Assembly: GCF_002954385.1 (NCBI RefSeq)
Contig: NZ_MQVY01000001.1
Coordinates: 472,892 to 536,891, forward strand
DNA: 64,000 bases
Direction of reading: 5' to 3'
DNA from: Tenacibaculum sp. SG-28
GTDB lineage: Bacteria; Bacteroidota; Bacteroidia; Flavobacteriales; Flavobacteriaceae
Part shown: piece after piece, positions 3,145-64,000 of the stretch
Position numbering within the stretch: the stretch's first letter is position 1
Layout: each line of letters begins with the position of its first letter
Notes under the pieces: model-generated
The model's database searches: none
What the model was told of the DNA's origin: nothing
What the model saw: only the letters and a program-made list of their open reading frames with translations
Made by a program: the position numbers and the translations under genes

Positions 3145-3294
3145 ATTCGTAGTTGTTCTATTAGTTCAAATATTATTTAATAATAAAAAGCTATAAAAAA
3201 ACAAGTAACCGATACAAAACATACGTTTATCGATTGCCTAACTTGATTTGATTATTTTAAGAGAAATTTAAACTGTCATTATAAATTATACGCG

Positions 3295-4482
3295 ATGAAA
3301 CTAGCCATTGTATCTGCATATCCACCCAGTAAAGTTACTCTAAATGAATATGCCTACCATTTAGTGAAAAATTTATCAGCTAAAGAAGAGCTTAACGAAA
3401 TTGTAATTTTAACCGATGTAAAACCCAGTCAATCGCTCTTAGAATTTAAAGAAAGTACTTGTGTTGTAACCGCTGTTCAATGTTGGACTTTTAATAGTTA
3501 TCACAATTTCTTTTCTATTATGAAAACAATTCAAAAAGTAAAGCCAGACCTTGTATTTTTTAACCTCCAGTTTATGAAATTTGGTGATAAAAAGATAGCG
3601 GCAGGTATGGGATTATTACTTCCTTTAGCGTGTAAAATTATTAATATTCCTTCGCTAGTCTTATTGCACAATATATTGGAGCAAGTAGATCTTAAAACAG
3701 CTGGTTTTACGAAGAATAAACTATGGAAAAATGTCTTCAATTTTATAGGTACTTGTCTTACCAAATCTATATTAGCATCAGATTTAGTTGCTGTAACTAT
3801 TGGGAAATACGTAGATATTCTGGAAAAAAAATACAAAACTAACAACGTTGCTTTAATTCCTCATGGAACCTTTGAAATTAGTAATACTCTTGAAATGCAG
3901 CAAGATGGTGAGGTTTTCAGAATTTTAACTTTTGGTAAATTTGGTACCTATAAAAAAGTGGAGGTATTAATCGAGGCATTAATTGCTATTCGTAAAAAAG
4001 TTCCGATAAAGATTGAGCTAATTATTGCTGGGACAGACAATCCAAATGTCCCTGGGTATCTAGAAAGTGTTCAAACTACATACGCACATGTTGAAGGCTT
4101 GTTTTTTCCTGGATATATAGAAGAAGAAAATGTGGCCTCACTTTTTATGAATAGTTCTGTGGTTGTCTTGCCATATACAGGAACAACAGGTAGTTCCGGG
4201 GTATTGCATCAGGCCGCTGGTTATGGCAAAGTAATCGTCTTACCAGATCTTGGAGATTTTAGTTTATTGATGAAAGAAGAGGGATACGTTGGTGCATATT
4301 TCGAGCCTGAGAACTACCTTAGTTTAGCAGATGCTTTGGAAAAACTTATTAAAGATAAACAGTATCGAGAAACTATTGCCCATATTAATTACAAAGCATC
4401 TAAGGCTTTATCTATGGCAGATATTTCGAATTGGTATATTGTTCACTTTCAAAACATTTTACTTAAAAACAAAGCTTCCTAA
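3295..4482 (+). CDS. Glycosyltransferase family 4 (GT-B fold)
   Basis: 395 residues. The N-terminal half begins MKLAIVSAYPPSK and continues with segments typical of the acceptor-side domain. The C-terminal half has ILTFGKFGTYKKVEVLIEAL, a PGYI..E.V segment, and LPYTGTTGSSGVLHQAAGYGKVIVLP, the usual nucleotide-sugar-binding region of retaining GT4 enzymes. It presumably transfers a sugar from an activated donor to a growing glycan on the cytoplasmic side. It ends one base before the end of the convergent GH5-like gene. The family is well supported; donor and acceptor cannot be inferred. Confidence 0.88.
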   Translation: MKLAIVSAYPPSKVTLNEYAYHLVKNLSAKEELNEIVILTDVKPSQSLLEFKESTCVVTAVQCWTFNSYHNFFSIMKTIQKVKPDLVFFNLQFMKFGDKKIAAGMGLLLPLACKIINIPSLVLLHNILEQVDLKTAGFTKNKLWKNVFNFIGTCLTKSILASDLVAVTIGKYVDILEKKYKTNNVALIPHGTFEISNTLEMQQDGEVFRILTFGKFGTYKKVEVLIEALIAIRKKVPIKIELIIAGTDNPNVPGYLESVQTTYAHVEGLFFPGYIEEENVASLFMNSSVVVLPYTGTTGSSGVLHQAAGYGKVIVLPDLGDFSLLMKEEGYVGAYFEPENYLSLADALEKLIKDKQYRETIAHINYKASKALSMADISNWYIVHFQNILLKNKAS

Positions 4483-45798: not shown

Positions 45799-47643
45799 AT
45801 GATTAAAAAAAGAGTTGTATATATTTTATTATTTATTTCTGTCGTTGCTCAGGGGCAAGTATCGAGCAATGCAGATGTTTATAATAGTTTCACATCTCGA
45901 AACTTTATGAAATTTAATAGGTTCCTTACTGTTCCTACCTTTTCTGCGCTGCGAGAGAACAGTAGTTCTATGAGTGCGATTGTAAGGAATAGTTTTGTAG
46001 AGTTTGAAGATGCACCAAGGCTATATTTATTCAGTTATTCGGGGAAAATGCGTGAAAACGTAGGTGCCGGATTAGCGATATACCAGCAAGAAGTTGGCGT
46101 GTTTAAAGACTTTGGTGCTGTAGCAAATTATGCACAAAGAATAGCATTAAACCAAGATTTTGATCTGACTTTTGGTTTTAATGTGGTATATAGTAGAAGG
46201 AGCGCAGACGGATTAAAAGTGAATTCTGTAGTTCCAGATCCTGCGATTAGTAATTTTCAAGACATTCCTGTGGTAAACTTTCAGCCGGCATTAACGGTAT
46301 CCTACGGAAATTTTGATTTTGGTGTATTTTTTGAAAACCTATTAGATTTTAATCTAAAGGAAAACGAATTACTAACCTCTTTTTCAGAAAAAACTTTTTC
46401 AGGGCATGCTATGTATTCGTATGAGTTTACCTATGCTAATGGTATTTTCGAAGGTGCTGATTTGCGTATTCTTGCTTTGGCTAGAAAACCAGGAAGCGGA
46501 AGTTTTGGTTTTGGAGGGAATGCCATAATCGATCTTCCCAAAGCAGGTTGGTTAAAGGCAGGCTACGATAAGGAGTACGGTATGTCTGCAGGAGTCGGGG
46601 TGAATTTGTCAGATCGTTTGTCTATTGGTTTTACCTATGAGAAAAATGATTTTGCATCTACTAACGAGGTTGGAATCATCTATAATTTCGGGATGAAATC
46701 CTTTACAAGAAAACGTCCTACGCGACGTGTTGGTAATGTAAGTGTGACACTTCCTGAACGCAAAACAAACAAAGAGTATAAAAATCCGGATCACAACAAT
46801 TTATCTATTGAAATTCAAGAAGCTTATGATTCTATAGGAATTTTAAACGATAAGGTAGACGAGATATTACGCATACTTAAAAATAGACCTGCTCCAAAAA
46901 GCACTACCAATACTAACGTTGGTGTAGTGCCGATACTTCCTGCTGATGGAGCTGAGGAAAAAGATACCAGTTTACGAAGAAGAGCCGCTACACCATGGAG
47001 AAATCCAACCATTAGACGCTCTGGTGGTGGCGGAACCATGTATTATGTGGTAGAAGACCAATTCAAGAGCAAAGAAAATGTAGAGTCGTTTATTGCTGAA
47101 AAACAATGGAAGTACGATCGTGAGGAAATCGAAGCCAAGTATATCTATGATCCTACGACAGAACTCTACTACCTGTATTTTGATAGATTCGTAAAAGAGG
47201 AAGATGCTGAGGAGATGAAAGAAGAGTTTAAGGAAAAGAAAATGTTTGAAGGCGATGACGATGATCCATTAGGCTTAACCGATAAAAAAACCATCAAAGA
47301 AGCGGTATATGTGGTTAAAATTACACTTGGTGGAGATGGAGATTCGTATGAAGAACCCAAACCACAACCCCCTGCGAGAATTGCCAACCTAAATACCAAT
47401 GGTGAAATTGAAGCTGGATATTACTTGCAAATCGGAGCTTTTGGTAGTAAAGCCAATGCCGATCGTTTTGTAGACGAATTGCGAAATGACGATATTGATG
47501 CCAATTATTTTATAAACCCCGGAACTGGTTTACGACATGTATACATATTCAAAACGAAGAATAGAGAAGAGGCTCTTGCAGCATATAATAGTAACTTGAA
47601 TGGATCGTATTACGATCGTAAATCCATTGTAAACGTTAAATAA
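45799..47643 (+). CDS. PorP/SprF-family outer-membrane protein with C-terminal SPOR-like domains
   Basis: 614 residues. The signal peptide ends near VVAQGQ. The first ~310 residues are a PorP/SprF outer-membrane barrel (NRFLTVPTFSALREN, GFTYEKNDFASTNEVGIIY). After a helical linker come two SPOR-like domains, around MYYVVEDQFKSKENVESFIA and YYLQIGAFGSKANADRFVDE. SPOR domains bind peptidoglycan bare of stem peptides. SprF proteins are needed to secrete the SprB-like protein encoded next to them, so this one probably serves the giant downstream gene, 42 bp away, and may tie the adhesin complex to the wall. Domain calls are good; the partnership rests on gene order. Confidence 0.85.
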   Translation: MIKKRVVYILLFISVVAQGQVSSNADVYNSFTSRNFMKFNRFLTVPTFSALRENSSSMSAIVRNSFVEFEDAPRLYLFSYSGKMRENVGAGLAIYQQEVGVFKDFGAVANYAQRIALNQDFDLTFGFNVVYSRRSADGLKVNSVVPDPAISNFQDIPVVNFQPALTVSYGNFDFGVFFENLLDFNLKENELLTSFSEKTFSGHAMYSYEFTYANGIFEGADLRILALARKPGSGSFGFGGNAIIDLPKAGWLKAGYDKEYGMSAGVGVNLSDRLSIGFTYEKNDFASTNEVGIIYNFGMKSFTRKRPTRRVGNVSVTLPERKTNKEYKNPDHNNLSIEIQEAYDSIGILNDKVDEILRILKNRPAPKSTTNTNVGVVPILPADGAEEKDTSLRRRAATPWRNPTIRRSGGGGTMYYVVEDQFKSKENVESFIAEKQWKYDREEIEAKYIYDPTTELYYLYFDRFVKEEDAEEMKEEFKEKKMFEGDDDDPLGLTDKKTIKEAVYVVKITLGGDGDSYEEPKPQPPARIANLNTNGEIEAGYYLQIGAFGSKANADRFVDELRNDDIDANYFINPGTGLRHVYIFKTKNREEALAAYNSNLNGSYYDRKSIVNVK

Positions 47644-47685: not shown

Positions 47686-50600
47686 ATGAAAAAACTCTTA
47701 CTAACCCTAATTGTCATTTTTTCTGTTGTTATCATTCATGCACAGGAACAGAAAATTGTATCTGAAAGTACAAGACCTTTATCTGCTGCAGTCAAGAGAG
47801 CAGACGTACCTTTTCAAAATAGATTTAATACTGTTACAAGAGGTGAAATGACCTTTGTAGGAAACAATATTTTGAATAGAGCAGATTTTAACGATCCGTA
47901 TGATGGAAATGAAGCAAATAGTAACTTTACCTTGGGGTATATTGACGTAGATTCCGATGCATCAACTTTTTCGTCCTCGATGTCTACACTTACTTTACCC
48001 AGTTGTTCAAAAATAGTATACGCCGGTTTGTATTGGACTGGTATTTATCCCTTTGAAAATTGGGCAGATGAAGCTGCAGGTGTTGATACTACAGATCCTG
48101 ACTGGAACCGTATGAAGTTTAAGGTGCCTGGAGGAAATTATATAGACATCGTTGCCGATAATTCTGATGTTAATGCAGGGGATGTCATTTATAGAGATGG
48201 AGATCCTGATGAGAGGCCTTATGTTTGTTATAAAGATGTAACCGATTTAGTTTCGGGATTAAGTAACCCTGAGGGAGATTACTATGGCGCGAATATAAAA
48301 GCAACTTTAGGACAAGATACTTTTGATGGTAGATTGGGTTCCTCTGCGGGATGGGCTTTAGTAATAATTTATGAAAATGAGACATCCTCTAGCAAGAAGT
48401 TTTATATCTATGACGGATTTTCTACCATTAGAAAAGCAGATGGTAGTTCTGTAGATGTAAATGTTTCTGGTTTCCAAACCGTTCCTACAGGGCCTGTTCG
48501 AGCAAAGTTATTGGTTGCGGCCTTAGAGGGTGATCGTCAAATTGTAGGGGATGCTTTTCGAATTAAAGATGTAAATGATAATTTTGTTGATATAACTTCT
48601 GGAGATAACAATACCTCAAATAATTTTTTTAATAGTTCCATTACCCGCGATAATAATTTTGTAAATACCAGAACCCCAAATAGTATAAATACTTTAGGTT
48701 TTGATCTTGATTTGTTCGACTTAAATAATACAGGTAATAGTATTTTAGGGAATAATGATACCGAAACAACGTTGAATTTTACAACCGACGGAGATTCTTA
48801 TTATCCATTTCTTCTTGGTATGGCGGTAGAAGTAATTGAACCAAATATTCAATTAGTGAAAACTATAGAGGATGCCGCAGGGAATGATATTTCTGGTCAA
48901 GCTGTGGCACTTGGAGGAGAATTGTATTATAATATTAGCTTTCAAAATGTAGGAACAGATAATGCTTTAAATACTGAACTAATTGACATATTACCAAAAA
49001 ATGTCGATTTAATTGAAACGGACATAACTTTTCCGTCTGGTATATCTGCCTCCGATTATACGTATGAACAACCTGTTTTAGCCAATGGTTTTCGCGGTAA
49101 ATTAACCATTGATATTCCAGATAATTTGGTGCAGGAAAATGGTGCTAAATACGATATACGTTTTAAAGTAAAAGTAGTTGCGACATGCAACGATTTGCGT
49201 GACGTCTGTTCGAACGTTATCCAAAATCAGGCCTTTGCGAATTACGATAGTGACAAAGGTGGCTTGCCTAGAGTTGAAAATGCACCTAGTTTTGCAGGAA
49301 TTGATGCTTGTAATTTTGGTATTGTAGGTACCTCAAATTTCCTTGCAGATACAAGCGGTTGTTCTTTTGAGCGTGATGTAGTACTCTGTGGTACGGAAAT
49401 TGTGTTAACGGCAGGAAGTGGTTTTGCTACCTATGAATGGACGGATAGCAGTGGAAACGTTATTGGAAACGAACAAACAGTAACAGTAACTCAAGCTGGA
49501 ACCTATACTGTAAATAAAGTTGCACCTGTTGGATGTATCGATGGATCAGAAACAGTGAATGTTATCACTTTTAATAACGAGCCAAACCCCTTACTTCCCT
49601 TTGCAGATATTATGCTAACATGTCCGGATGATGGTTCTGATTTGGCAGAAATTTATTTATGTGGTACTGGAAGTTCAAGAACGATTAACTTACCTTTTGA
49701 TGCCGCTACAGGAACCACGGTAACTTGGCAAAAGTTAGATGAAACTTCTTGCCCAGATACCGCAAGTACTGTTTGTGGTAATTTTAATACCGCTTGTACT
49801 TGGGATACCATAGGAACTAATTTTACACAAGATATTTCTGAAGAAGGCGAATACCGATTGGAGGTTTTATACGATGGTAGATGTCCTAAGACCTATTACT
49901 TTAATGTATTTTCTTCTACCTTAAACCCTGATATTACAGTAACAGACATACTTTGTGGGGCGAATGGAGAAATCGTAATTAATGGGATACCAAATAATTA
50001 CCAGTTTAAAGTGGTAGGACCAAATGGTTATGAAGAAGGATACCAAGATGCCAATACGTTTGTAGTTACCGAGCCAGGAGATTACAATTTAAGTATCCGA
50101 CTAAACGACGCTACTGCCGCTTCTTGTGAATTTACATTCGATCCTATAAACATACAAAGAAGAGATATCGCATTAGATTTATTACCCACAGATATTAATT
50201 GTCCTGGGGATATTGGAGAGGTTCGCGCACAAGTAACTAACGTACCAGGCTTATATACCTATACCTTAATTAAGGATGGCGCAACCATTGCCACTGAAGG
50301 TCCAACCGATGTTAACGATTTTACTTTCGACGTTAGTACTGGTGGTGAATATTCTGTTCAAGTAGATACCGATGCCTGTTCGATCACAGAAACAGTGATC
50401 GTTAACCAAGTGGACGATTTGGTTTTATCTGCTACCAAAACTAAAGATATTACTTGTACCGATGGCACATCGAACGGTATAATTACTTTAAATGCAACTG
50501 GAGGAACTTTAGTAGCCAATGCTAATTATTCGTATGCGATTTGGTCGTATAATGGAATCGATAGGTATGCCTCAGTGGATGCTATTCCTGCTGCAGATTT

Positions 50601-51333
50601 TCAAACTTCGAATACTTTCGATATTGCGAATGCAGAGGAAGGTACCTATGTATTCATAGTACTCGATAGTAATAATTGTTCTGCATTCTCGAATCCTGTT
50701 GAGATTGTTGTTGAGCCACCTCTTGAATTTAGAAGAAGTAGACAAAATATTTTATGTACTGGTGATGAAAACGGACAAATTACAGTCTCGGTTAAAGCAA
50801 GTTCAAATCCGGGCTATTTAGTTGAATATAGTATAAACGGTGGAGTAGATTATTTTACCTCAGGTACGTTTACCAATTTAGCGGTAGGGGATTATACAAT
50901 TGACATTCGCGCCTCTAAAGATTCGTACCAATGTTTCTATCAAGAAACTTTTAAAATTAAAGATAAAACCGATATAGCTGCCACTGCTGCCATAACCCAA
51001 GAGTATACTTGTGCGCAAAATGCCACAATTACCTTTACCCAAGCTACTGGCGGAACTGCTCCTTTTACCTACGGTATTAATGGAACGTATTCTTCTAGTT
51101 TGGTTAAAGATAATTTACAAGACGGTACTTACCAATTATCGGTAAAAGATGCCAACGGTTGTGAGATTATCATAGACGAAATAATTATAGATCCACTGCC
51201 AAACCAACCAACTTTAGATGCTCCGATAACCTATAATTGTGATGGTACAGGAAATGTAACGGTTAGCCCAGCTGGCTTATCTATAGTATTGATAATGGTG
51301 CTTTTGATTCTTCCAATGTCTTTACTGGTTTAA
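47686..51333 (+). CDS. Giant SprB-repeat adhesin, N-terminal piece
   Basis: 1,215 codons to the first apparent frameshift. The signal peptide (LLLTLIVIFSVVIIHAQ) leads to a ~380-residue N-terminal domain with YAGLYWTGIYPFE and a GWALVIIYE segment, seen at the start of many flavobacterial giant surface proteins. Then comes a DUF11-like domain (QLVKTIEDAAGND, YNISFQNVGTDNALNTELID), Ig-like domains and the first SprB repeats (GGTAPFTYGINGTYS, GTYQLSVKDANGC). Near 51276 the frame is lost; one added T continues it as YSIDNGAFDSSNVF. It is the third gene of the operon and presumably T9SS cargo, with a sorting domain beyond the window. Roles in gliding or adhesion are inferred from SprB. Confidence 0.85.
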   Translation: MKKLLLTLIVIFSVVIIHAQEQKIVSESTRPLSAAVKRADVPFQNRFNTVTRGEMTFVGNNILNRADFNDPYDGNEANSNFTLGYIDVDSDASTFSSSMSTLTLPSCSKIVYAGLYWTGIYPFENWADEAAGVDTTDPDWNRMKFKVPGGNYIDIVADNSDVNAGDVIYRDGDPDERPYVCYKDVTDLVSGLSNPEGDYYGANIKATLGQDTFDGRLGSSAGWALVIIYENETSSSKKFYIYDGFSTIRKADGSSVDVNVSGFQTVPTGPVRAKLLVAALEGDRQIVGDAFRIKDVNDNFVDITSGDNNTSNNFFNSSITRDNNFVNTRTPNSINTLGFDLDLFDLNNTGNSILGNNDTETTLNFTTDGDSYYPFLLGMAVEVIEPNIQLVKTIEDAAGNDISGQAVALGGELYYNISFQNVGTDNALNTELIDILPKNVDLIETDITFPSGISASDYTYEQPVLANGFRGKLTIDIPDNLVQENGAKYDIRFKVKVVATCNDLRDVCSNVIQNQAFANYDSDKGGLPRVENAPSFAGIDACNFGIVGTSNFLADTSGCSFERDVVLCGTEIVLTAGSGFATYEWTDSSGNVIGNEQTVTVTQAGTYTVNKVAPVGCIDGSETVNVITFNNEPNPLLPFADIMLTCPDDGSDLAEIYLCGTGSSRTINLPFDAATGTTVTWQKLDETSCPDTASTVCGNFNTACTWDTIGTNFTQDISEEGEYRLEVLYDGRCPKTYYFNVFSSTLNPDITVTDILCGANGEIVINGIPNNYQFKVVGPNGYEEGYQDANTFVVTEPGDYNLSIRLNDATAASCEFTFDPINIQRRDIALDLLPTDINCPGDIGEVRAQVTNVPGLYTYTLIKDGATIATEGPTDVNDFTFDVSTGGEYSVQVDTDACSITETVIVNQVDDLVLSATKTKDITCTDGTSNGIITLNATGGTLVANANYSYAIWSYNGIDRYASVDAIPAADFQTSNTFDIANAEEGTYVFIVLDSNNCSAFSNPVEIVVEPPLEFRRSRQNILCTGDENGQITVSVKASSNPGYLVEYSINGGVDYFTSGTFTNLAVGDYTIDIRASKDSYQCFYQETFKIKDKTDIAATAAITQEYTCAQNATITFTQATGGTAPFTYGINGTYSSSLVKDNLQDGTYQLSVKDANGCEIIIDEIIIDPLPNQPTLDAPITYNCDGTGNVTVSPAGLSIVLIMVLLILPMSLLV

Positions 51334-53489
51334 GTACAGGAAACCACGTAATTACTGTAGCCTATGGAAGCGGATGTACTACAGATATTACCGTTACTGT
51401 CTTATCGAATCAAATTTTTAACGGTACTATTTTAGGAGAAACGGATAATTACTGTAATACGCGAGGTAATGGAACTATTACTATTGAGGTATTTAATTTT
51501 AACGATGGTGATTACGAGTATTCCATCGATAACCAAAACACATGGATTACTGTAACAGAAAGCCCTTATACCATAACCGATTTAGACTTCGGTACCTATA
51601 GCGTATTCGTAAGAGATAAAAATGCTATTGAAACCTGTGTTTTAAGTCTTGGCGATGTAAATATTAAAGAACCAGACGAATTAACCATAACTGCCACAGA
51701 AATTTCACCTGCTTCGTGTGCAGCTACTAATTCTGGGGCAACCGTAGAAGTGCAAGCTACCGGAGGAATACCTCCTTATCAGTACAGTATGGATGGTGAA
51801 AATTGGCAATCCTCTAATATTTTTACCGATGTCGCACCAAGCGATGACGAATATACATTTTACGTGCAAGACAGCCGAGATTGTAGTGAGTGTGATTGCG
51901 ATTCTGATGGAGGTGGAGCAGTAGGACCAGGGCCTGCTTGTACCCCCGGATTTTACCAAATCATAGAAAAAGTTTTACGCGTTATTGATCCGGTGACAGG
52001 AAATAACGAATTTATATACAATCCTGTTACTGCCTCTGGTGCTCCTTTTGAAACCAATACTATTGCGGTTCATCCAACCAATTACTATATCTATGGGGTA
52101 CAAATTAGTACTGGATATTTATACCGTATGGATCCGCAAGACCCAAATGGTCTCGTAGAAATTTTAGGACCGGTTACTAATGGCGGGGCTGATTTAAATT
52201 TTGATCCTAATATTTGCTCCTTTGATGATGATGCAAATTTATGGTTACGTAAAGGAAATGGCGATTTTTATAAAGTCGACGTAACTACCAGAGCCTACAA
52301 TAAAATATCCTTTACTGGGCCAAATGCAAAACTTGCAGATATGGTAATTATCAATAACATAGGGTATTCTATTAGAGCAAATAAACTATATACCTTTGAT
52401 TTAACCACTAATCCTATACAAGGAACAGAAAAAACCATTGCCGATTTAAGTGGAAGCGCGAATAAAGGTTTTGGTAGTGTATTTACTACCCAAGACGGTG
52501 ATTTGTATGGGTTTAGTAATAATACTGGTGAGGTTTTCCGCATCGATGACTTTAAAACAGCAAACCCTGTTGCCGTTAAAATATACCAAGGTACTCCTTC
52601 TAATTTTAACGATGGAGCCTCATGTCCGGGAGCTTGTTTACCGGTACAATTCGAATGTGTATCTTCTACCACAACAACTTTAAAAATAAATGAACCAGAG
52701 TCGGTTATCCATACGGCTACTGTGGAAGGATGTTACGACGGAACCAATGGAGAGATAGCTGTAGAGGCTACACAAGGTGAAGGGAACTTCCAGTTTTTAA
52801 TAGAAGGGCAAACTTGGCAAACTCCAGATCCGGTATCTGCAACTAATTACACCTTTACTGGTTTAATTCCCGGAACGTATAGAGTTCGTGTTAAAGATGC
52901 CTTGGGTTGTCTTTCAGAATGGAGCGAACACACCATTGCCGCTCCGGTCACTGCAACCTACACGATAGTTCCGGTAACTTGTAACGATGGCGTTGTAGAA
53001 ATAACTGCTGCCGGTGGTGACGGTAATTTTGTGTATAGTTTTGTGCCAGTTGGACAAGCGTCTTCTTTTGATACAGTTACGACTTTCAATATTCCTACTG
53101 CTGGAAATTACGATCTTTTAGTTAGAGATAACGGCGGAAATTCACCTTATTGTGAATATACAGAAACGGTTTCTGTAACAGCAATTCCTAATCCAGTTGC
53201 GGTATTAACAGCAATACAGCCAAATTGTAATTCGGGTGAGGGTGCCATTAGCGTGGCGTTATCCGATGGGACAAACCCTTATGAGGTACAAATTTCGGCT
53301 ACCGATGGCTCCTTCTCAAATACAGCAGGACCAAGTACTGCAGCCACAGTACTATTTGAAAATTTACTACCAAATACTTACGAAGTAACAGTAACAGATG
53401 CGAATGGATGTACAAGTGTACCGGTTACCACAACAATAATTGCACCCGATAGTATTGTAAGTAGTGCAAGTTTAACTACCGATTTTACG
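51010..53489 (+). repeat. Super-repeat family A, copy 1
   Basis: Measured from the cysteine codon of TCAQNATITFTQATGG to the matching cysteine of copy 2; 2,480 bp including a ~780-bp beta-propeller-like insert. Confidence 0.75.
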
Positions 53490-56400
53490 TGTTCGGGTAA
53501 CGGTGTAATCACTTTCGTAGCAGCTACTGGAGGTACTGCACCTTATACTTATGGTATCGATAATGTTTATTCCGACCTTTTAGAGAAGGATGGTTTAACC
53601 GAGGGAACTTATGCGCTAACGGTAAAAGATGATAATGGTTGTGTGTTAGATTTGGGTAGTATTACTATTGACCCTTTACCAAGCAAACCAAACTTTAGTA
53701 GTGCAATTAGCTACAATTGTGACGGTACCGGAAACCTAACGGTTACCCCAGTAGATCCTAGCTATACCTATACCATCACCGATGGAACTTCTACTACCGG
53801 GCCGCAAGCATCTAATTTGTTTTCTAATCTGGTAGCAGGGGTAAACTATACCATTACCATAGATTATGGTAAAGCATGTACCACAGAAATAACTACTAAA
53901 GTACAACCTAATAATGAATTTGGAGGAACTATTGTATCGAGTGAAGACAGTTCTTGTTTTGAATCGAATAATGGTTCCATTACTATTGCTGCTAACAACA
54001 TCACTAATGGAGATTTTGAATATTCTACCGACGGCGGAGTAACCTGGGAAACCGCTATAGACAACCCATACAAAATAGTAGGTTTAGCTGCAGATGCGTA
54101 TGATATCGTAATTAAAGAAGATACCTGTGAGGTAGCTCTTGGTTCGGTAACTATTAACGAGCCTACGCCAATTACCTTAACGGCGGAGGTAACCCAGTTG
54201 CCATCGTGTACCGCAACAAATTCTAATGCTACTGTAACTATAAACGCTTCCGGAGGAACACCACCATACCAGTACAGCATAGACAACGGTGTAACTTGGC
54301 AAACCTCCAATGTATTTACCGATGTACCGCCGAGTACCACCGATTACATTGTTAACGTTATTGACAGCAGAAACTGTAACGAGTGTGGCTGCTCTTTAGA
54401 CCCTTTTGAAAATGGAAGTTTTGAAGAACCAGTGTATAATGGAACTGGTTTTAAAATAATAGACGAAAATCTTGTTCCTGGTTGGGATTCGGATGCCACG
54501 GATAATAAAATTGAAATATGGCACAATAATTTTAAAGGAGTGCCTGCTTCTGATGGGAATAATTTTATTGAATTGAATGCTAATTTAGTTTCAGCAATTT
54601 ACCAAGAATATTGTACGCAACCTGGAGATATTATCAGTTGGTCTGTAGACCATAGAGGAAGAAGTGGTGTGGATGTTGCGGAGGTGCAAATAGGCGGTTC
54701 TTTAGCAACAGCTACCACGCAAGAAACTATGAGTGATGGAAAGTCTGCTTGGGGAAGTTATTCAGGTACGTATACCGTACCTGCAGGACAAACTGCCACC
54801 ATTATTGCTTTTAAAGCGATTTCCACAGCAAGTGGTAGTTTGAGTGTTGGTAATTTTATTGATAATGTAAATATTCAAATCAATAAAGTAAATTGTACAC
54901 CAATTACCATAAGTGTTCTAGAACCAGAGGAGGTATTGCACCAAGCTACAGTAGAAAATTGCTACGATGGTACCAATGGAGAAATAGCAGTGAATGTTAC
55001 CCAAGGAGTACAAGATTACTTGTTTAGAATTAATGGTGGTGCATGGATTTCTCCCGATCCTATCGATGCTACTAACTATACTTTTACAGGGCTTGTTCCA
55101 GGAACCTATACCATAGAGGTACAAGATGCTTTAGGGTGTATTTCTGATCCATCAACCCATGTTTTAAAAGATGTTTTAACAGCTACGCACACCGCCGGAA
55201 TCATTACCTGTGATCCTACCAATGTTAGTATTGCCGCCTCGGGTGGTGATGGAAATTACGTATACAGTGTCGTACCAACAGGAACAGCACCTTCGTTTAG
55301 TGCTGCTACAGATATTAGTATTGCTACCGCGGGAAGCTATTCCATACTGGTAAGAGACAATAACGGAAATGCCCCATACTGCGAATTTTCAGAAACGATA
55401 ACTATTGATGCCATTCCTAACCCTACTGCAACACTCGCGGCAACGCAACCTAACTGTGATGGGGATACAGGAAGTATTCGTGTGACCATTTCCGATGGGC
55501 AAGCACCATTTACAGTAACTATTGTAGACAGTGGTGGCGCCTCACAAACTACTCCAGCAAGTACCGATACTAATGTACTATTCGATACTTTAGGTACTGG
55601 TACATATACAGTTACTGTAACCGATGCTAACGGTTGTTCAAGTGTTGCGCAAACCGAAAGTATTGCAGTACCAAATCCATTGGTTAGTAACGCGAGCCTT
55701 ACGACCCCATATACATGTACTGGAGAAGGGGTTATTACCTTCGACATTGCTACTGGCGGAACACCAGATTATACCTATGGTATTAATGGCGTATATTCTA
55801 ATGATCCGGTAAAAACTGGTGTAACAGCGGGAACCTATGTGCTAACAGTAAAAGATGCGAACGGTTGTACATTGGCCCTGCCAGACATTACTGTTGCCCC
55901 ATTGCCTAGTGAACCTACATTTGTACCTGCGGTAACCTATGCTTGTGATGGAACCGGAACGATAACCATGGATCCTAGCAATGCCGGATATACCTATCAA
56001 ATTGATGGGATAGCGAACACCCCAGCAACTTCTAACGTATTTACAAATCTAGCTCCTGATGACTATGTAATTAGCATAGACTACGGTAGTGCTTGTACCA
56101 AAGAAATTACCGTTAGAATAGAAAACAACCAAGAATTTACAGCGAGTATTGTAAATACTACCAATAGCTCTTGTAATGGAGCGGATGATGGTAGTATCAC
56201 GATTACCGCTTCCAATTACGGTACTTCTTATGCATATACTACCAACGGAACAGATTGGGTGACAGCTACTAGCGATACGGTTGAAATCTCGGGCTTAGCC
56301 CCGGGTGCTTACTCAAATATTCAGGTAAGAACTAGTGCAACAGGATGTACTTTAGACTTAGACGATGTAAACCTAACAGAACCAGCTTTATTAGAGGCTT

Positions 56401-57215
56401 CTGCAACTATTTTAAAACCAGTTTCCTGTACTGCTCCAGAAGGTGCTACTATAGAGGTAGATGGCACGGGAGGTACTGCAGGGTATACCTATAGTATAGA
56501 CGGTACCACCTACCAAGCTAGCAAAATATTCACGGAACTTTCCGACGGAACCATTACCGTGTATGTTAAAGATGCCTTCGGTTGTATCGCTACGGAAGAT
56601 ATTACGATTGCCCCAGCTACTCCAATACTATTTGATGTTAGTGCAACCACTTGTTATAATGGTTCTAATGGAGAAATTAATATCACTGTTACCCAAGGAA
56701 ATGGCAACTACCAATTTAAATTGAATGGTGGAGCTGCGCAAACGCCAAGTCCAGTAACTGCCAATAACTTTACTTTTACAAGTTTAAGCCCAGGTACCTA
56801 TACCATTGATGTTACAGATGGTGTTGGATGTGAGGGAACACAACAGTCAGTTACTATTTATGATGAATTAGTAGCCACGGCAGTGCCTACCAACCAAAGT
56901 TGTGCTGCTGGAAAGATTGAAATTACGGCAGTTGGTGGTGATGGAAATTATGTATACAGCGTTGTACCAGCAAATACAGCAGTTGGTACTTTTGCTTCGG
57001 ATAATCCTGTAGAAGGTTTAGCAGCAGGTGTTTATGACGTGTATGTTCGAGATAAAAATGGTCTTGCCGATTTCTGTGAGTATTTAATTGAGGATGTAGA
57101 AATTTTAAATACAGTTCCTGTCGGTATCACAGCAACGGCCAACCAGCCAACCTGTAATGGAGATTTAGGAAGTATAGAGCCACTATTGCCAATGGAAATG
57201 CACCACATACTGTAA
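51276..57215 (+). CDS. Giant SprB-repeat adhesin, second piece
   Basis: This frame continues the same protein for about 1,980 codons with no start of its own that makes sense (the first ATG at 51750 lies inside a repeat). It holds two and a half copies of a long super-repeat (units at 51010, 53490 and 55716) made of SprB repeats such as GGTAPYTYGIDNVYS, GTYALTVKDDNGC, NCDGTGNLTVTP and CYDGTNGEIAV. Copy one contains a beta-propeller-like insert at ~51903-52680, copy two a jelly-roll-like insert at ~54395-54900, and copy three has none. The frame ends just past 57179, where one added G continues it as EATIANGNAPHTV. Confidence 0.82.
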   Translation, partial: LIYSIDNGAFDSSNVFTGLSTGNHVITVAYGSGCTTDITVTVLSNQIFNGTILGETDNYCNTRGNGTITIEVFNFNDGDYEYSIDNQNTWITVTESPYTITDLDFGTYSVFVRDKNAIETCVLSLGDVNIKEPDELTITATEISPASCAATNSGATVEVQATGGIPPYQYSMDGENWQSSNIFTDVAPSDDEYTFYVQDSRDCSECDCDSDGGGAVGPGPACTPGFYQIIEKVLRVIDPVTGNNEFIYNPVTASGAPFETNTIAVHPTNYYIYGVQISTGYLYRMDPQDPNGLVEILGPVTNGGADLNFDPNICSFDDDANLWLRKGNGDFYKVDVTTRAYNKISFTGPNAKLADMVIINNIGYSIRANKLYTFDLTTNPIQGTEKTIADLSGSANKGFGSVFTTQDGDLYGFSNNTGEVFRIDDFKTANPVAVKIYQGTPSNFNDGASCPGACLPVQFECVSSTTTTLKINEPESVIHTATVEGCYDGTNGEIAVEATQGEGNFQFLIEGQTWQTPDPVSATNYTFTGLIPGTYRVRVKDALGCLSEWSEHTIAAPVTATYTIVPVTCNDGVVEITAAGGDGNFVYSFVPVGQASSFDTVTTFNIPTAGNYDLLVRDNGGNSPYCEYTETVSVTAIPNPVAVLTAIQPNCNSGEGAISVALSDGTNPYEVQISATDGSFSNTAGPSTAATVLFENLLPNTYEVTVTDANGCTSVPVTTTIIAPDSIVSSASLTTDFTCSGNGVITFVAATGGTAPYTYGIDNVYSDLLEKDGLTEGTYALTVKDDNGCVLDLGSITIDPLPSKPNFSSAISYNCDGTGNLTVTPVDPSYTYTITDGTSTTGPQASNLFSNLVAGVNYTITIDYGKACTTEITTKVQPNNEFGGTIVSSEDSSCFESNNGSITIAANNITNGDFEYSTDGGVTWETAIDNPYKIVGLAADAYDIVIKEDTCEVALGSVTINEPTPITLTAEVTQLPSCTATNSNATVTINASGGTPPYQYSIDNGVTWQTSNVFTDVPPSTTDYIVNVIDSRNCNECGCSLDPFENGSFEEPVYNGTGFKIIDENLVPGWDSDATDNKIEIWHNNFKGVPASDGNNFIELNANLVSAIYQEYCTQPGDIISWSVDHRGRSGVDVAEVQIGGSLATATTQETMSDGKSAWGSYSGTYTVPAGQTATIIAFKAISTASGSLSVGNFIDNVNIQINKVNCTPITISVLEPEEVLHQATVENCYDGTNGEIAVNVTQGVQDYLFRINGGAWISPDPIDATNYTFTGLVPGTYTIEVQDALGCISDPSTHVLKDVLTATHTAGIITCDPTNVSIAASGGDGNYVYSVVPTGTAPSFSAATDISIATAGSYSILVRDNNGNAPYCEFSETITIDAIPNPTATLAATQPNCDGDTGSIRVTISDGQAPFTVTIVDSGGASQTTPASTDTNVLFDTLGTGTYTVTVTDANGCSSVAQTESIAVPNPLVSNASLTTPYTCTGEGVITFDIATGGTPDYTYGINGVYSNDPVKTGVTAGTYVLTVKDANGCTLALPDITVAPLPSEPTFVPAVTYACDGTGTITMDPSNAGYTYQIDGIANTPATSNVFTNLAPDDYVISIDYGSACTKEITVRIENNQEFTASIVNTTNSSCNGADDGSITITASNYGTSYAYTTNGTDWVTATSDTVEISGLAPGAYSNIQVRTSATGCTLDLDDVNLTEPALLEASATILKPVSCTAPEGATIEVDGTGGTAGYTYSIDGTTYQASKIFTELSDGTITVYVKDAFGCIATEDITIAPATPILFDVSATTCYNGSNGEINITVTQGNGNYQFKLNGGAAQTPSPVTANNFTFTSLSPGTYTIDVTDGVGCEGTQQSVTIYDELVATAVPTNQSCAAGKIEITAVGGDGNYVYSVVPANTAVGTFASDNPVEGLAAGVYDVYVRDKNGLADFCEYLIEDVEILNTVPVGITATANQPTCNGDLGSIEPLLPMEMHHIL
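51903..52680 (+). other. Inserted beta-propeller-like domain in adhesin copy A1
   Basis: About 260 residues between the cysteine cluster DCSECDC and LKINEPESV. Segments such as NTIAVHPTNYYIYGVQISTG, NGDFYKVDVTTRAYNKI and GFGSVFTTQDGDLYGFSNN repeat a blade-like pattern resembling DUF6923/propeller domains of secreted proteins. Fold assignment is by pattern only. Confidence 0.6.
53490..55715 (+). repeat. Super-repeat family A, copy 2
   Basis: Starts at the cysteine of TCSGNGVITFVAATGG; 2,226 bp including a ~500-bp jelly-roll-like insert at the place where copy 1 has its propeller-like insert. Confidence 0.75.
54395..54900 (+). other. Inserted jelly-roll (CBM/DUF642-like) domain in adhesin copy A2
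   Basis: About 170 residues after the cysteine cluster NCNECGC: NGSFEEPV, VPGWDSDATDNKIEIWHN, ASDGNNFIELNAN, ISWSVDHRGRSGVD and WGSYSGTYTVPAGQTA are the hallmarks of DUF642-like or carbohydrate-binding jelly rolls. Sugar binding is likely for the fold but not shown. Confidence 0.65.
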
Positions 57216-57330
57216 TAATTTCCGATACTGCTGGTGTTTTACGTACGATTAGTGATTATGTAGGTAGCACAATTGTCTTTAATGATTTACCAGCAGAAAA
57301 TTATACCATAGCAATAACAGATGCCTTGGG
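55716..57330 (+). repeat. Super-repeat family A, copy 3 (no insert, partial)
   Basis: Starts at the cysteine of TCTGEGVITFDIATGG and follows the same order of subrepeats, but passes straight from KDAFGCIATEDITI to CYNGSNGEINITV with no inserted domain, then diverges after the repeat around QPTCNGDLGSI. Confidence 0.65.
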
Positions 57331-58870
57331 GTGTTCTGTCACTACTAATGTTAGTATAATAAATCCTAATGCTTTAGTAATGGATATTAAGGAGGCTTTA
57401 CCGGAGAATTGTGTAATTGATACGTCCCTAACTGGATTTGATTTTATAAATATAAATCCTGCTGATTATGCACCTTACCAATTACAATACAGTATCGATA
57501 ATGGTGCAAGTTGGGCCGATTTTAATACCATTTCCGATGGGCAACTTAGAGGATTTAATTCTGGAGATATTGTTTTTCCAGTACTACGAACAGTAGAATC
57601 AGATGGTATAACCACTCGCTGTCTTATCGCATATGGGCAGTATGAAATACCATATCCAGTGGAAGGTTTAATCGTTGATCCTGTGGCAAACCCTACTTCA
57701 TGTACCTCTGGATTTAGTGTAACTGTTGAGGCATTTGGTGGAACAGGGCCTTATGAGTTTGCTATCGGAACACCAACCACTTGGTTACCACCAGACGGAA
57801 CGGACCCAAATACACTAACATTTTATAACTTAATTCCAGGATTGACCTATGAATTTTTTGTAAGAGATGCCTCAGGATGTATCAAAAAGAATAATGAAGA
57901 TGTATATGCAGATTTTACACCCTCTGTTCCTATTAGCGCAACGGTAGATAAAGCATCTTGTAATGGTTCTTCTAATGGTGAAATTACTTTTTCTATAGAC
58001 AACACCTCTGGTGATTTAGTAGCGCCGTTTACCTATACATTATTCAAAAGAGACGCAACCAATACCGGTGTAGCTGTAACGGGGTATGAAAATATTTCGC
58101 AAGCAGATTTTGCAGACATTACAGTTACAGGGCTAAACCAGGGCGAATATTATATTTTAATTACCGGTTCTGGTGCAGGATGTCAGTTTGGTAGTACCGA
58201 TACATTAATTCAAGAAGGAGTAGCTATTAATGGTAGTATTTCAAAAGTAAACGATATTACCTGTGATGTTGATGGTGCCGTTCGTGTAGACAATGTTACT
58301 GGTGGTTTTCCCGGGTATACCTATTCTGCTAAAGTTTATGAAACTGGAAATAATACAAATGCCATTGCATTTAATATCACAAACGCTGGCTTGGTAACCG
58401 TTAACGATACCGATCTTGGTGGTGTTACTTCTGTAGATGTGGAAATTTCAGTTACAGATTCTAATGGATGTCCACAGGTACTAGGTATAGAAACACTTAC
58501 CCTATTACCACCACCATCTATTGCTAGTGTGACCTCTAGTTCTTGTGATACGAACAAAACAATAACCGTAGTAGCATCTGGTGGAACTGCCCCTTACCAA
58601 TATTCAATAGACGGTGGAAGTACTTATACCAATACAACTTCAAATACCACCTATACTTTTGATGGCTTAGTAGCCAACAGCTATGATGTTGTAGTAAAAG
58701 ATGCTAATGGTTGTACCGATACACAAAATAACCAAATTGTATATCCGGGTACTAACTTTACTTTAACCACTGGTCAAAATTTAAATTGTGTTCCAGGAGA
58801 AGCCGAAATTAACGTTACTTTAAATTCTGGCGCAAGTTGGTACTGCGGGAGACTTTACTTATGTAATTAA
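57179..58870 (+). CDS. Giant SprB-repeat adhesin, third piece
   Basis: About 560 codons in a further frame: ATIANGNAPHTVIISD, ALGCSVTTNVSII, then three or four more SprB-like repeats (FGGTGPYEFAIGTP, SCNGSSNGEITFS, GGTAPYQYSIDGG). This stretch links the first super-repeat family to the second and is not itself clearly part of either. The frame is lost near 58835; the shift is opposite in sign to the others (one base too many or two too few), after which VGTAGDFTYVINAV continues in frame. Same gene as the pieces on either side. Confidence 0.8.
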   Translation, partial: ATIANGNAPHTVIISDTAGVLRTISDYVGSTIVFNDLPAENYTIAITDALGCSVTTNVSIINPNALVMDIKEALPENCVIDTSLTGFDFININPADYAPYQLQYSIDNGASWADFNTISDGQLRGFNSGDIVFPVLRTVESDGITTRCLIAYGQYEIPYPVEGLIVDPVANPTSCTSGFSVTVEAFGGTGPYEFAIGTPTTWLPPDGTDPNTLTFYNLIPGLTYEFFVRDASGCIKKNNEDVYADFTPSVPISATVDKASCNGSSNGEITFSIDNTSGDLVAPFTYTLFKRDATNTGVAVTGYENISQADFADITVTGLNQGEYYILITGSGAGCQFGSTDTLIQEGVAINGSISKVNDITCDVDGAVRVDNVTGGFPGYTYSAKVYETGNNTNAIAFNITNAGLVTVNDTDLGGVTSVDVEISVTDSNGCPQVLGIETLTLLPPPSIASVTSSSCDTNKTITVVASGGTAPYQYSIDGGSTYTNTTSNTTYTFDGLVANSYDVVVKDANGCTDTQNNQIVYPGTNFTLTTGQNLNCVPGEAEINVTLNSGASWYCGRLYLCN

Positions 58871-61800
58871 CGCTGTTTCAGCTCCAGCAATTACACCTTC
58901 ACCGAATACAGGAACCATAGTAGGTACCGATACTACAGAGGTAATTACTGTTGCGGCAGAAGGAACTTATGAAGTTACGGTAACGGATGTAACCTCTGGT
59001 TGTGTACTGTCGCAACAAATTACCATCGCACCCACCATTTCACCAAACTTTGATTTGGTCGTTACTGCTGATGATATTTGTTTCGGTTCTGCGACAGGAG
59101 AAATTCAAATTACAGAGATAAATACTAATATTAATCCGTTAACTTATGCGATAACAAATAGCCCTGCTAATGCTTTTAATGGGCCTGTAACATCGTTAAC
59201 TATTGGAAATTTAGTAGCAGGTAATTATACTATTGAAGGCACAGGAACCAATGGATGTACGTTTAGCAAGTCTATTGAAATAAAAGAAAACCCGCAATTG
59301 GATGTTCCTGATGCGGCAGTAGCAGTTTCAAACTTTAGTTGTACAACAAATACCAACGATGTAAACTTTGCCACCGTTACCGTTGATCCAACTAAAATAA
59401 CTGGAGGAAGTGGAACTTTTGTCCGTTATGTGTTTGAATTTGAAGAAACTGGTTCCGGTATTGTAATTGCTACAGATACACAAGATAGTACCAACCCTAA
59501 GTATGTGGTTACTAACGAAGCAGGAGGAACGGTAAATATAACTGTATACGACAACCAAGGATGTGCAGGTACGGCAACTACCACTATACCGCCTTTCTCT
59601 AAACTAGAGACGATTAGTGTGGCTGTAGATAATGCAATTACTTGTACTACCCAAGAGGATATAACAGTTAGCTATACAGGAATTAATATTAATCCATCGC
59701 AATTAACCTATCGCGTTGTAAATGCAGATACTTCTGTAGATACAACAAATAGTTCGGGAGATTTTGATGGTTTACCAACAGGTTTTTATACGGTTTCTAT
59801 TATAAATACGGCAACGAATTGTATCATTAGCACAACCCATGAGGTATTCGACAAGCCTGAATTTTTCTTAGAGCTAAGCAAAGACCAAAACGTATCTTGT
59901 TTTGGAGCCACCGATGGTGCCTTTACAGTTACTTTTAGTACTGCTACTCCGTATGCAGATACCTATGACTATGTGGTGTATGATGCAATTACTAATACGG
60001 CAACAAGTATTACTGGAACTAACATTACTGGAGGAGAAACAATAAATGGTTTAGGCGCCGGAAGTTACTACGTGGTAGCTACCATGACAGCTTCTCCGTT
60101 CTGTCCGGTGACCTCACCAACCGTAACCATAGAAGGTCCTGCAGCTGCCTTAGACCTTTCGCTAACAAATACTCCTGTTAGTTGTGTTGGCGGTAGCGAT
60201 GCATCGATAACTGCAACTGCAACTAATGGTTGGGGTGGCTACGAATTCCAACTAGAAAATGCTAGTGGTATTATAGAAGCATATAGTACTACTAAAGTGT
60301 TTAATGGTTTATCTGCAGGTACCTATACCATAACAGTTCGCGATGCAAATGGTTGTCCAGTTTCTCAGGATATTACCATAGATAATCCAGACCCAATAGT
60401 CTTTACTTTAGCTAAAGACGACCAAGCTTGTGATGCTACTTCTGGTGGCAGCATAACAGTTATTGCTACTGGAGGAACTGGTAGTTATACCTATGTTCTT
60501 TTAGAGGGAACAACAGTTATTCGTACCCAAACTACCAATGTTTTTGACGATTTGGGGGCCGGAACTTATACGGTAGAAGTATCGGATACCAATTCTTGTA
60601 GCGCTGCAGCTAGTACTCCGATAACCTTAGTGCCAAATTTAGTATTTACAGTTACAGAAACGAAAAAAATAGATTGTTCACCAACACCAGATGGTACCGT
60701 TGAAATAAAGGTAACACAAGGTTCTGGATCGTACGCCTACGAGGTAGAGGATAGTGCAGGTAACGATTTATTCGGTAAACTTGCGATTACCGGTACTTCA
60801 GAATCGTTTGTGGTTACTACTGCGGATACTTATAAAGTTCGTGTCTATGATACAGCTGCTAACCCCGAATGTGCTATTGAAAAAAACATTGTAATTGCAG
60901 AACCTATTCTTCCGATATTCCGATACGAAAAAGAAGATAGTACTTGTGCAGGTTCTAATTCTGGTGTGATTCGATTGTATGCCGATGCCAATGGTATTTT
61001 ACCATTAAGCTATAGTATAACACCTGATGTTGGTAATTTTAATGCTACTGCGAATAGTTTTGAAAATTTACCCCCAGGAACCTATGCGGTAACCGGAACC
61101 GGAACTAATGGTTGTGCAACAACAAAAACAGTTATTATATCAGAGCCACAACCAATAGTACTGCCAACACCGGTAGTTACCGAATTTAGCTGTATCACTG
61201 CCAATGAAACGGAATTGGCAGCTATTACCATTCCAAATTCTGGTGCCGATGTAATAACAGGAGGTTCTGGTAACTATATACGTGTAATTTTCACCGACAC
61301 AAAAGGGACTACCGATGCCGCAGACGATGAAATCGTTCAAGATGGTCCAAGTTTAACGTATACCACAGCAAACGAACAAGGTGGAATTTTCCAAGTTGAA
61401 GTATTCGATGACAAAGGTTGTTCCGCGATAGAAACAGCTACCATAGCAGCATTTTCTAAGTTTGAAGATGCAACGGTTACTGTAGATAAATTAATAGAGT
61501 GTACTGCAGGTGAAAATATTACCGTTACCTACAGCGTTACCAATCCTTTGGCTGCTGGTGTAGATGTGTCGTTTACCATAACAAAAACTGGAGATTCTTT
61601 TACGGAAACAAATACTACAGGAAGTTTTGTTGATTTGAGTCCTGGTTTTTATACCATAGCGATAACCAACCCAACGACAGGTTGTATCTACGCCGTGAAT
61701 CATGAGGTATTAGAAACACCAGAATTCTTATTAGACATCAATAAAACAAGTAATGTTGCCTGTTTGGGTGGTACTGAGGGAGAAATTAGCTTTACGTTTA

Positions 61801-64000
61801 GTTCTACTACACCATATACAGGCTTGTATTCGTATGAAGTATTTAATACAACAGGTTCTGTAGGAAGTATAGTTACTGGTGCAAGTGGTCTTTCTACTGC
61901 AGGTAATTTGCCAGCAGGAGAATATTATGTTGTAGTAACGATGGAAGAGAGTCCTTTCTGTCCGGTTACTTCTTCTACAATTACTATTGAAGGACCTACA
62001 ACAGCTCTAGATATAGCCCTTACCAGCACTGCAATTAGTTGTATTGGAAGCAGCGATGCATCGATAACCGCAACTGCAAGTAATGGCTGGGGTGGCTACG
62101 AATTCCAACTAGAAGATGCTAGTGGTACTGTTTTAGAAGGTTTTAGTACTAGTACGGTATTTACCGGGCTTGCTGCAGGAGATTATGTGGTAATAGTTCG
62201 CGATGCCAATGGTTGCGAGCAACGAGATACGATCACCATTACCGATCCTACTGCTATTACTTTTACGCTTAGCAAAGACGACCAATCGTGTGATGCAACT
62301 TCTGGAGGAACTATTACAGTTAGTGCTTTAGGAGGAACAGGAGATTACGTGTATATTTTATACGATACTGTGAGTGGTAATGAATTACGTCGTCAAACAG
62401 ATGCAGTATTTACCAATTTAGGTGCTGGAGAGTATACCGTAATGGTTAACGATTCTAAAGGGTGTAGTGCTGCTTCTAATGCATCGATTACTTTATTACC
62501 CGATTTAGAGTTTACTATTGCAGAAATTAAGAAGTTAGATTGTTCTGTTACACGCGATGCGGAAATTGAAATAAGTATTACTTCTGGTTCTGGTTCTTAT
62601 GCCTATGAGGTTAGTAATAGTGCAGGGGTGGTATACCCAAGAACGCCAATTACAACAGGAGCTACTTCTGTTATCTTTACAGTAAACACTGCAGATACTT
62701 ATACCGTACAAGTGTACGACGTTGCAGCAACACCAGAGTGTATTGAAGTTTTATCCGTTTCAGTATTAGATCCAATTCTTCCAATTTTTAACTATGATGT
62801 AGAGGATAGTACTTGTTTCGGAGCCAATAATGGAGTTATTCGACTGTATGCTGAAGATAATGGTGTTTCTCCTTTAACCTATGCCATTACGAATGCTCCG
62901 GATGCTAGTTTGATCGGAACTACGAGTTCTTTTGAATTTACTAATTTGCCTCCTGGTATATATGAAGTGACTGCTACGGGTACGAATAGTTGTACCACCG
63001 CAGAAAATATCACTGTAGAAGAGCCACAAGAAATTAATGTGCCATTTGTTACGGTATCGGAATTTGGTTGTACCATAGGAAACGATACTACTTTTGCAAG
63101 TATCACCGTGGATGAAGCCCAAGTTACCGGAGGATCACAAACTTACAACAGAGTAGTGTTTACAGATACCAGTACTAATGCTGTAGTGCAAGACGATTCT
63201 AGTTTTGTATTTACCTCTACCGATACTGACGGAGGAACCTATTTGATTCAAGTATATGACGATAAAGGTTGTGTTGGAAGTACTACTGCCACGATTCAGC
63301 CATTTGAGGTTCTATTAAGTGCTGTAGTAAATGTAACCCAAGAGATAGATTGTGATACCAATGAAACTATCCAAGTGGATGTTAGCTCGAGTATACCAGT
63401 AGCAGCAGGTGATCTTACCTATAGTATCTCAGGCCAGAATTCTGGGTTCACAGCTACCAATACTACCGGAGAGTTTACAAATTTAGTAACGGATATTTAT
63501 ACCATTGCAATAGAACATACTATTACTGGTTGTATTTTGGAAACTAGTCATGAAGTAGATGCGATACCAACGTTCTCTTTAAACGTTACCAAAACATCTA
63601 ACGCTACATGTATTGGTTCTGCAACCGGTTCGTTTACCGTAGACTTTAGCACTGCATCGCCATATGCAGGCCTGTATTCTTACGAAGTGTATACGGCAGC
63701 TGGAACCACTACCGGAATTACTGGTTCAGGAGCGACTGGTGTTACCACTATTAGTGATTTGGTGGCTGGAGAGTATTACGTAGTAATTCGCATGGAGGAA
63801 ACTCCAGACTGTGAAGTTACGTCACCAACAGTTACGATAGAAGATCCTACTGCAGCACTTTCTTTGGTTGCAGATGCACAATTGATAAGCTGTATCACTT
63901 CAGACTCTGGAGAAGTAGTACTAACCGCTGCAGGAGGTTGGGGTGGCTATACTTATGAAGTAACGAATACCACTACCGGAATTGTGATACAATCGTTTGC
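58836..64000 (+). CDS. Giant SprB-repeat adhesin, fourth piece, open at window end
   Basis: About 1,720 codons with no stop up to base 64000, so the C-terminus, including the expected T9SS sorting domain, lies outside the window. It is made almost wholly of a second super-repeat family with a period of 1,866-1,869 bp (units at 59079, 60945 and 62814). Each unit carries several SprB-like repeats, for example GVIRLYADANG, NGWGGYEFQLE, DDQACDATSGGSITV and SGSYAYEVEDSAGND, and a pair of cysteines per repeat. With the pieces before it, the visible part of the protein is over 5,400 residues. Such length is known for flavobacterial SprB-like gliding adhesins. Confidence 0.83.
59079..60944 (+). repeat. 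Super-repeat family B, copy 1
   Basis: From the cysteine of CFGSATGEIQI to the matching cysteine of copy 2, 1,866 bp (622 codons). Confidence 0.75.
60945..62813 (+). repeat. Super-repeat family B, copy 2
   Basis: From the cysteine of CAGSNSGVIRLYADANG to that of copy 3, 1,869 bp (623 codons). Confidence 0.8.
62814..64000 (+). repeat. Super-repeat family B, copy 3 (cut by window end)
   Basis: Starts at the cysteine of CFGANNGVIRLYAEDNG and follows the order of copy 2 up to the WGGYTYEV segment, where the window ends. Confidence 0.78.

Follow-up and report, generated by a model that had tools for sequence, protein, structure and literature searches.

Unrelated domains, probably ligand-binding heads, at one fixed place in successive super-repeats of an SprB-type giant protein of Tenacibaculum

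The locus

We analysed a stretch of 64,000 nucleotides (the window) on contig 1 of the 2.80-Mb genome of Tenacibaculum sp. SG-28, in which a giant gene of the SprB type starts at position 47686 and continues beyond the window to a type B end of the type IX secretion system (T9SS), flanked on both sides by PorP/SprF genes. Its translation contains three family-A super-repeats (SR1 to SR3), whose sub-repeats are lettered a to g. Sub-repeat d carries unrelated inserts in successive super-repeats, and these are probably ligand-binding heads pushed out sideways from the fibre. The original prediction, made from the DNA letters, had described shared borders with unlike inserts in copies 1 and 2, and neither border cluster nor insert in copy 3; the translation confirms all of this. 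In copy 1 the border ...VQDSRDCSECDC is followed by a 254-residue insert (window 51900-52661), in copy 2 the border ...VIDSRNCNECGC is followed by a 171-residue insert (54393-54905), and copy 3 reads ...VKDAFGCIATEDITI, with neither the cysteine cluster nor an insert. The features of this region are as follows.

51438..51665, + strand: SR1 sub-repeat c, upstream part of the putative cassette; groups with c of the other DUF6923-bearing copies
51684..51890, + strand: SR1 sub-repeat d up to the head-bearing loop; aligns with copy 2
51882..51899, + strand: cysteine cluster CSECDC, border of head 1
51900..52661, + strand: head 1, DUF6923 domain (PF21959; 88.3 bits, cut-off 27)
52662..52703, + strand: presumed last strand of d after head 1; matches copy 2
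52704..53438, + strand: SR1 sub-repeats e, f and g
53469..53897, + strand: SR2 sub-repeats a and b
53937..54155, + strand: SR2 sub-repeat c; groups with c of jelly-roll-bearing copies
54174..54380, + strand: SR2 sub-repeat d up to the head-bearing loop; aligns with copy 1
54375..54392, + strand: cysteine cluster CNECGC, border of head 2
54393..54905, + strand: head 2, CBM4-like jelly-roll domain
54906..54935, + strand: presumed last strand of d after head 2; low confidence in the AlphaFold2 model
54936..55664, + strand: SR2 sub-repeats e, f and g
55695..57104, + strand: SR3 sub-repeats a to f, headless; d at 56403-56609

The sub-repeats flanking the two inserts line up between copies, as the prediction had held: d matches at 57% over 76 residues that reach slightly beyond the cluster, and a 96-residue segment made up of the last strand and the next sub-repeat matches at 58%. 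The inserts themselves cannot be aligned with each other (BLASTP E 2.5), and a relationship between them was rejected.

Profile scans find SprB repeats (PF13573) in all four open pieces of the giant gene (29.8, 172.8, 50.1 and 126.2 bits; cut-off 28), the type B sorting domain TIGR04131 at its end (92.6 bits, cut-off 35), and TIGR03519 (PorP/SprF) in the neighbours upstream (129.1 bits) and downstream (163.7 bits; cut-off 90.55). A promoter scan gave no signal above shuffles. The gene is read as separate overlapping pieces because its frame is broken at three places, near 51300, 57190 and 58850 (overlaps 51267-51333, 57158-57215 and 58824-58870).

45799..47643, + strand: PorP/SprF-family gene with an SPOR domain, directly upstream of the giant gene; presumed partner
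47686..51333, + strand: 5' piece of the giant gene, with a signal-peptide-like start (by eye), the conserved N-terminal region, the first SprB sub-repeats and SR1 sub-repeat a (50980-51189)
51267..57215, + strand: second open piece, holding SR1 to SR3
57158..58870, + strand: third open piece, SprB sub-repeats
58824..64000, + strand: fourth open piece, continuing past the window to the T9SS type B end (L001:2-2425; TIGR04131)

These breaks may be real decay or sequencing error, and three of them within a repeat region could suggest that the pattern is an assembly artefact. That explanation is very improbable, and an artefact as the source of the inserts was rejected: the same heads are seen in other genomes, at the same addresses and with the same borders, in frames that are unbroken and in several cases come from single-contig assemblies. 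Many relatives have a single open frame of 3.5-8.5 thousand residues where the window gene has its three breaks. Farther upstream, the gene at 43585-45792, which adjoins the PorP/SprF gene, encodes immunoglobulin (Ig)-like domains and a type B-like end that scores above the cut-off for Pfam CHU_C and below it for TIGR04131.

A fixed place with a cysteine border

Of 166 genomes of the genus (numbered G below), 61 encode the N-terminal 760 residues of the giant protein, as do 188 of 299 genomes of a wider family sample. The gene or part of it was obtained from 58 of the 61, with the window copy as the 59th, which covers all but G426 and G439; of the 61, 52 were readable past the first d and nine were not (G299, G327, G388, G400, G426, G428, G437, G439 and G453). 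One further set of loci contributes to the genome counts alone and is left out of those for cysteines, inserts and trees. P0008 denotes a partial protein of T. xiamenense and L103 the giant protein of G414.

Inserts of at least 140 residues were counted in 53 sequences, leaving out gaps before residue 1000 and gaps of 100-139 residues between repeats; most of the latter are, by eye, copies of one divergent repeat type, the others being an N stretch and a few further domains. The place of insertion is nearly constant: in 44 of 45 cases the repeat, 80 columns long, is left at columns 66-74, and the sequence after the insert picks up at columns 1-6 of the next one. We infer that the exit is the turn before the last strand of the repeat, the strand assignment being predicted; the interruption of a repeat by the head is seen in the sequence, and the neck and last strand have low confidence in the model. 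Among the 122 long proteins of the first homologue search, 18 gaps lie at these columns, seven of them in the window and P0008 and 11 (in nine proteins) unclassed. No such head was seen in five other relatives, including one from Tenacibaculum sp. M341.

The sole exception in place (L103 residues 1088-1323) breaks an a repeat elsewhere, at a GGxP loop that is a possible second insertion site. It is one of three further inserts of G414, in sub-repeats a and b (the others at 1435-1635 and 3167-3360); the first two have no Pfam match above cut-off. G414 and P0008 also have an F5/8-type domain in a c sub-repeat, and in P0088 of Robertkochia sediminum a different domain (residues 838-1041) appears, by eye, to interrupt an SprB repeat near the loop.

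Exactly two cysteines are present in 1471 of 1480 full-length repeats. Head-bearing copies have more: jelly-roll copies add four, placed on both sides of the head, in 34 of 35 cases, DUF6923 copies add seven in three of four cases and six in the other, and the L-type lectin copy described below adds six. Among the d copies that follow a c and have a next repeat, 38 have both a head and C-x2-C-x-C, one has a head only, none has the cluster only and 108 have neither; the single exception is the lectin bearer, with DCNEC only. Ordinary repeats have a counterpart only for the loop cysteine of d; the two further cysteines of the cluster are extra. The cluster was rejected as a mark of every SprB repeat, as 39/39 occurrences of C-x2-C-x-C in the 53 sequences (one contig-cut copy included) are head borders. 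The original prediction that the cluster marks the insertion site is thus borne out by 38/39 head-bearing against 0/108 headless copies, with a qualification: the EC..C border of the jelly-roll is found outside SprB repeats too, and some of the cluster cysteines may therefore be a feature of this head itself. It also counts against the strength of the association that the 35 jelly-roll copies are largely of one origin, and hence it does not represent 38 independent events.

From the placement of these cysteines we predict that disulfides between the two ends of a head staple its neck. C-x2-C-x-C spacing also occurs in metal sites, and the odd number added in most DUF6923 copies would leave one cysteine free. 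It is nevertheless improbable that the cluster is a metal site or a redox switch, given that the protein is predicted to be exported, that the jelly-roll nearly always adds an even number of cysteines, placed on both sides, and that the repeats elsewhere nearly always have two.

The heads

Head 2 forms a jelly-roll in an AlphaFold2 model (pTM, the predicted template modelling score, 0.56), as had been foreseen for the copy 2 insert; for the copy 1 insert, now matched to DUF6923, the original prediction had put forward a propeller-like domain. By structure comparison the fold of head 2 resembles that of a family 4 carbohydrate-binding module (CBM4), likened by fold alone at 18% identity, in a model unsure at the neck; because of this, the split-domain geometry and the disulfides are not visible in it. 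The choice-of-anchor C family (TIGR04362) scores 43.2 bits on head 2, below its cut-off of 120. A third head, on SR2 of G444, is an L-type lectin (PF18483; 166.4 bits, cut-off 78.3) whose best solved match is a legume lectin (7elv, 79.3 bits). Sequence searches of solved structures with head 1, head 2 and the SprB repeats yielded no useful relative, and a homologue search with head 1 alone scored none.

In the arrays of the 52 readable genomes the jelly-roll is present in 39, at SR1 in 37 and at SR2 in two (the window and G369). DUF6923 is found in three of the 52 and in P0008, at SR1 in the window, SR2 in P0008 and G414, and SR3 in G364, and the lectin in G444 only. Across all 166 genus genomes, SprB arrays included, the jelly-roll family occurs in 59, DUF6923 in five and the lectin in 16. 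At the loci examined, each family also has members that lie between calcium repeats of the TSP3 type, in many cases with a cysteine at either end; other members, lectins above all, occupy further contexts. In the family sample 24 of 299 genomes have the jelly-roll, and 18 of 28 re-read matches outside the window lie within TSP3 arrays. Side by side with these, four loci of other Flavobacteriaceae (L045, L051, L059 and L061) place the jelly-roll among repeats besides TSP3, an open frame of 10,601 residues (L211; G462:C1:440000-459900) has it between TSP3 repeats, and in G410 and G413 (L171, L175 and L215) it shares one non-SprB protein with an L-type lectin.

Family and fold, namely the L-type lectin in one relative and the CBM4-like jelly-roll, suggest that the heads are likely sugar-binding. 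Several facts weigh against the reading of the inserts as projecting, ligand-binding heads. The top Foldseek matches of head 2 are Stig cyclases, and the CBM4-like fold is common to proteins of other function. The model falls below 50 in predicted local distance difference test (pLDDT) at residues 72-82 and 247-261, the neck. We know of no function for DUF6923, and the lectin comes from a single genome, in which the sequence breaks off at a contig end. Thirteen of the 52 readable genomes are headless in the stretch read, so heads are not essential.

The last point, together with the near fixation of the jelly-roll at SR1 in the other genomes, as might be expected of a structural part, and with the indirect case for binding from family and fold, could also be taken to mean that the inserts are structural spacers, or aids to folding or export of the stalk. 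We regard this as improbable, slightly less so than a metal or redox role for the cluster. The address is common to three unrelated families, among them an L-type lectin that scores well above cut-off and a domain of CBM4-like fold, and all three also sit between TSP3 repeats of other proteins of the genus.

A probable cassette of c, d and head

The original prediction saw one scaffold with exchangeable inserts. Head position and identity do vary between species; the moving unit, however, looks like c, d and head together. In G364, sub-repeats a, b, e, f and g of SR2, SR3 and SR4 are 95-100% identical in DNA, whereas c and d of SR3, the DUF6923 bearer, are only 52-58% identical to those of SR2 and SR4, which match each other at 90-93%. 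Identity is lost between b and c and regained about eight residues before e. A sister trio (P0008, G414 and G444; 89-92% identity in the N-terminal region) gives a similar picture at SR2, where a and e remain at 93-96%: in the lectin bearer G444 the head is different, c is at 50-52% (vs 90%) and d at 76% (vs 94%).

Trees comprised between 96 and 111 super-repeats, trimmed of the cluster tail of d and given four head labels; SR1 of G437 was excluded from the counts (contig end), and SR1 of G324 was relabelled jelly-roll from its tail. The head label changes three times, the minimum possible, both on the tree of c plus d and on that of c alone, six times on d alone, and 20, 21, 22, 25 and 23 times on the flanks a, b, e, f and g. 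When labels were shuffled within genomes, the means for a to g were 34.1, 34.7, 31.8, 32.5, 29.2, 29.9 and 25.9, and the observed changes were reached in 0/200 shuffles for a to f and in 6/200 for g. Linkage to the head is therefore strongest in c and d, lower though still present in a and b, and declines in the downstream direction. All head-bearing c-d copies group together (support 92 and 95), the c-d of the lectin bearer being nested among those with DUF6923 (97 and 96). The e-f-g segments of SR1 and SR2 in the window are each other's nearest (support 99). Stalk parts thus evolve together within a genome, and cassettes across genomes. A tie of the head to super-repeat number instead of to c-d was rejected, since headless SR1 copies (e.g., G309 and G329) fall outside the head-bearing clade.

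A number of observations blur the cassette. In G369 the flank identity of the head-bearing copy falls off gradually. Headless copies also diverge in c and d (G462 SR2 c, 69%; G364 SR5 c, 57-75%, and d, 51-77%), and thus some c-d change occurs where no head is present. Within the trio, the variation in b (72-74%) and f (73-96%) bears no relation to the head. Flanks a, b, e and f carry some head signal, which makes the cassette border gradual on average. The lectin c-d stands beside the T. xiamenense and G414 copies with a support of 85, inside the group supported at 97.

The main rival reading, which explains much of the data, is that each head was inserted once, long ago, and inherited in place, with moves reflecting gain, loss or duplication of super-repeats and with flanks made alike by gene conversion halting at the head, so that no cassette was ever exchanged. 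Flanks are indeed strongly homogenised within genomes, c-d-head lineages are old and mostly at SR1 (37 of the 39 jelly-roll genomes), the window e-f-g segments group as conversion predicts, and a and b have their share of head signal. Against this, DUF6923 of G364 sits at SR3, between an SR2 and an SR4 that are alike in a, b and e to g, with borders at b/c and head/e; for an island to be sheltered there, two separate conversion tracts would have had to end at the same borders. In the trio, moreover, c, d and head of SR2 differ jointly while a and e stay alike. We consider inheritance in place unlikely on balance, though a good deal less so than the spacer reading.

Comparison with known systems

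Heads that bud from a split domain are known from the RTX adhesins FrhA, MpIBP and AhLap, in which ligand-binding domains emerge from an interrupted Ig-like domain (extracts of PMC12077191 and PMC10865825). The RTX heads are borne sideways on a long repeat fibre, as is predicted here, and AhLap has three different ones. According to the same extracts, those proteins use type I secretion and RTX repeats, whereas here the host is an SprB repeat with T9SS type B export, and heads come back at the same address along a periodic array, bordered by cysteines and apparently forming a cassette with c and d. Pfam scans of the giant-gene pieces found no RTX family, the T9SS end standing there instead, and the terms disulfide, T9SS and SprB are absent from the main text of PMC12077191. 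The budding principle would be shared; carrier, secretion route, border, periodic address and cassette pattern differ.

SprB of Flavobacterium johnsoniae resembles the window protein by its features (SprB repeats, a type B T9SS end and PorP/SprF partner genes), as distinct from a sequence comparison; extracts of the two papers (PMC12635249, PMC12618676) do not mention inserted heads. T. maritimum has an annotated SprB, MARIT_1321 (PMC5561996, in part). RemA of F. johnsoniae, a T9SS adhesin with a role in gliding, likewise bears a lectin domain (extract of PMC12618676); its end is of type A, and here the lectin lies inside an SprB repeat, in one relative. Adhesive and stalk domains are also recombined in domain-shuffled fibrillar adhesins, for which insertion inside a stalk repeat is not described in extracts of PMC10952558 and PMC8286594. 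Inserted heads in SprB repeats do not appear in the titles or abstract openings of the best-matching papers, in literature searches that covered only a minority of subscription journals.

Proposed mechanism

We propose that the split in d falls at the turn preceding the last predicted strand. Both ends of the head would then meet at the stalk and its far side would point outward, as in the RTX split domains, the neck being stapled by the disulfides that the extra cysteines at both ends would form. Sub-repeats c and d with their head would be inherited and moved as a cassette, while gene conversion probably keeps the remaining parts of the super-repeats of one genome similar to each other. Recombination in the alike flanks could then put a cassette onto another super-repeat, and in a rarer event an unrelated head would replace the one on a c-d lineage. 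With its type B end and its neighbouring PorP/SprF genes, the fibre would be part of the gliding machinery, a role we infer from these features and from published work on SprB and SprF (PMC12635249 and PMC12618676, in part); a change of head would then alter grip and leave export and anchorage untouched. The heads are thus likely interchangeable, sugar-gripping devices on a fibre predicted to pull cells along surfaces. A more tentative proposal, which we hold to be somewhat short of an even chance, is a head-exchange system, in which near-identical super-repeats act as recombination arms for c-d-head cassettes and the disulfide-bordered loop of d accepts unrelated sugar-binding domains from a pool shared with TSP3-repeat proteins.

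Implications

SprB-type adhesins look like bare repeat fibres, and what they grip is not obvious from their sequence. A fixed and recognisable place narrows the question to a few domains, each of which can be made and tested by itself, and a gap at repeat columns 66-74 with a cysteine border provides a rule for finding more. Heads inside stalk repeats may also explain why many adhesive domains of Bacteroidetes lie mid-protein, a location found surprising (PMC8286594, in part). The cassette pattern would document how heads have been replaced in nature on an adhesin that is predicted to be driven by a motor, and if the heads are indeed exchanged, a lineage could change its grip with export, anchoring and motor unchanged.
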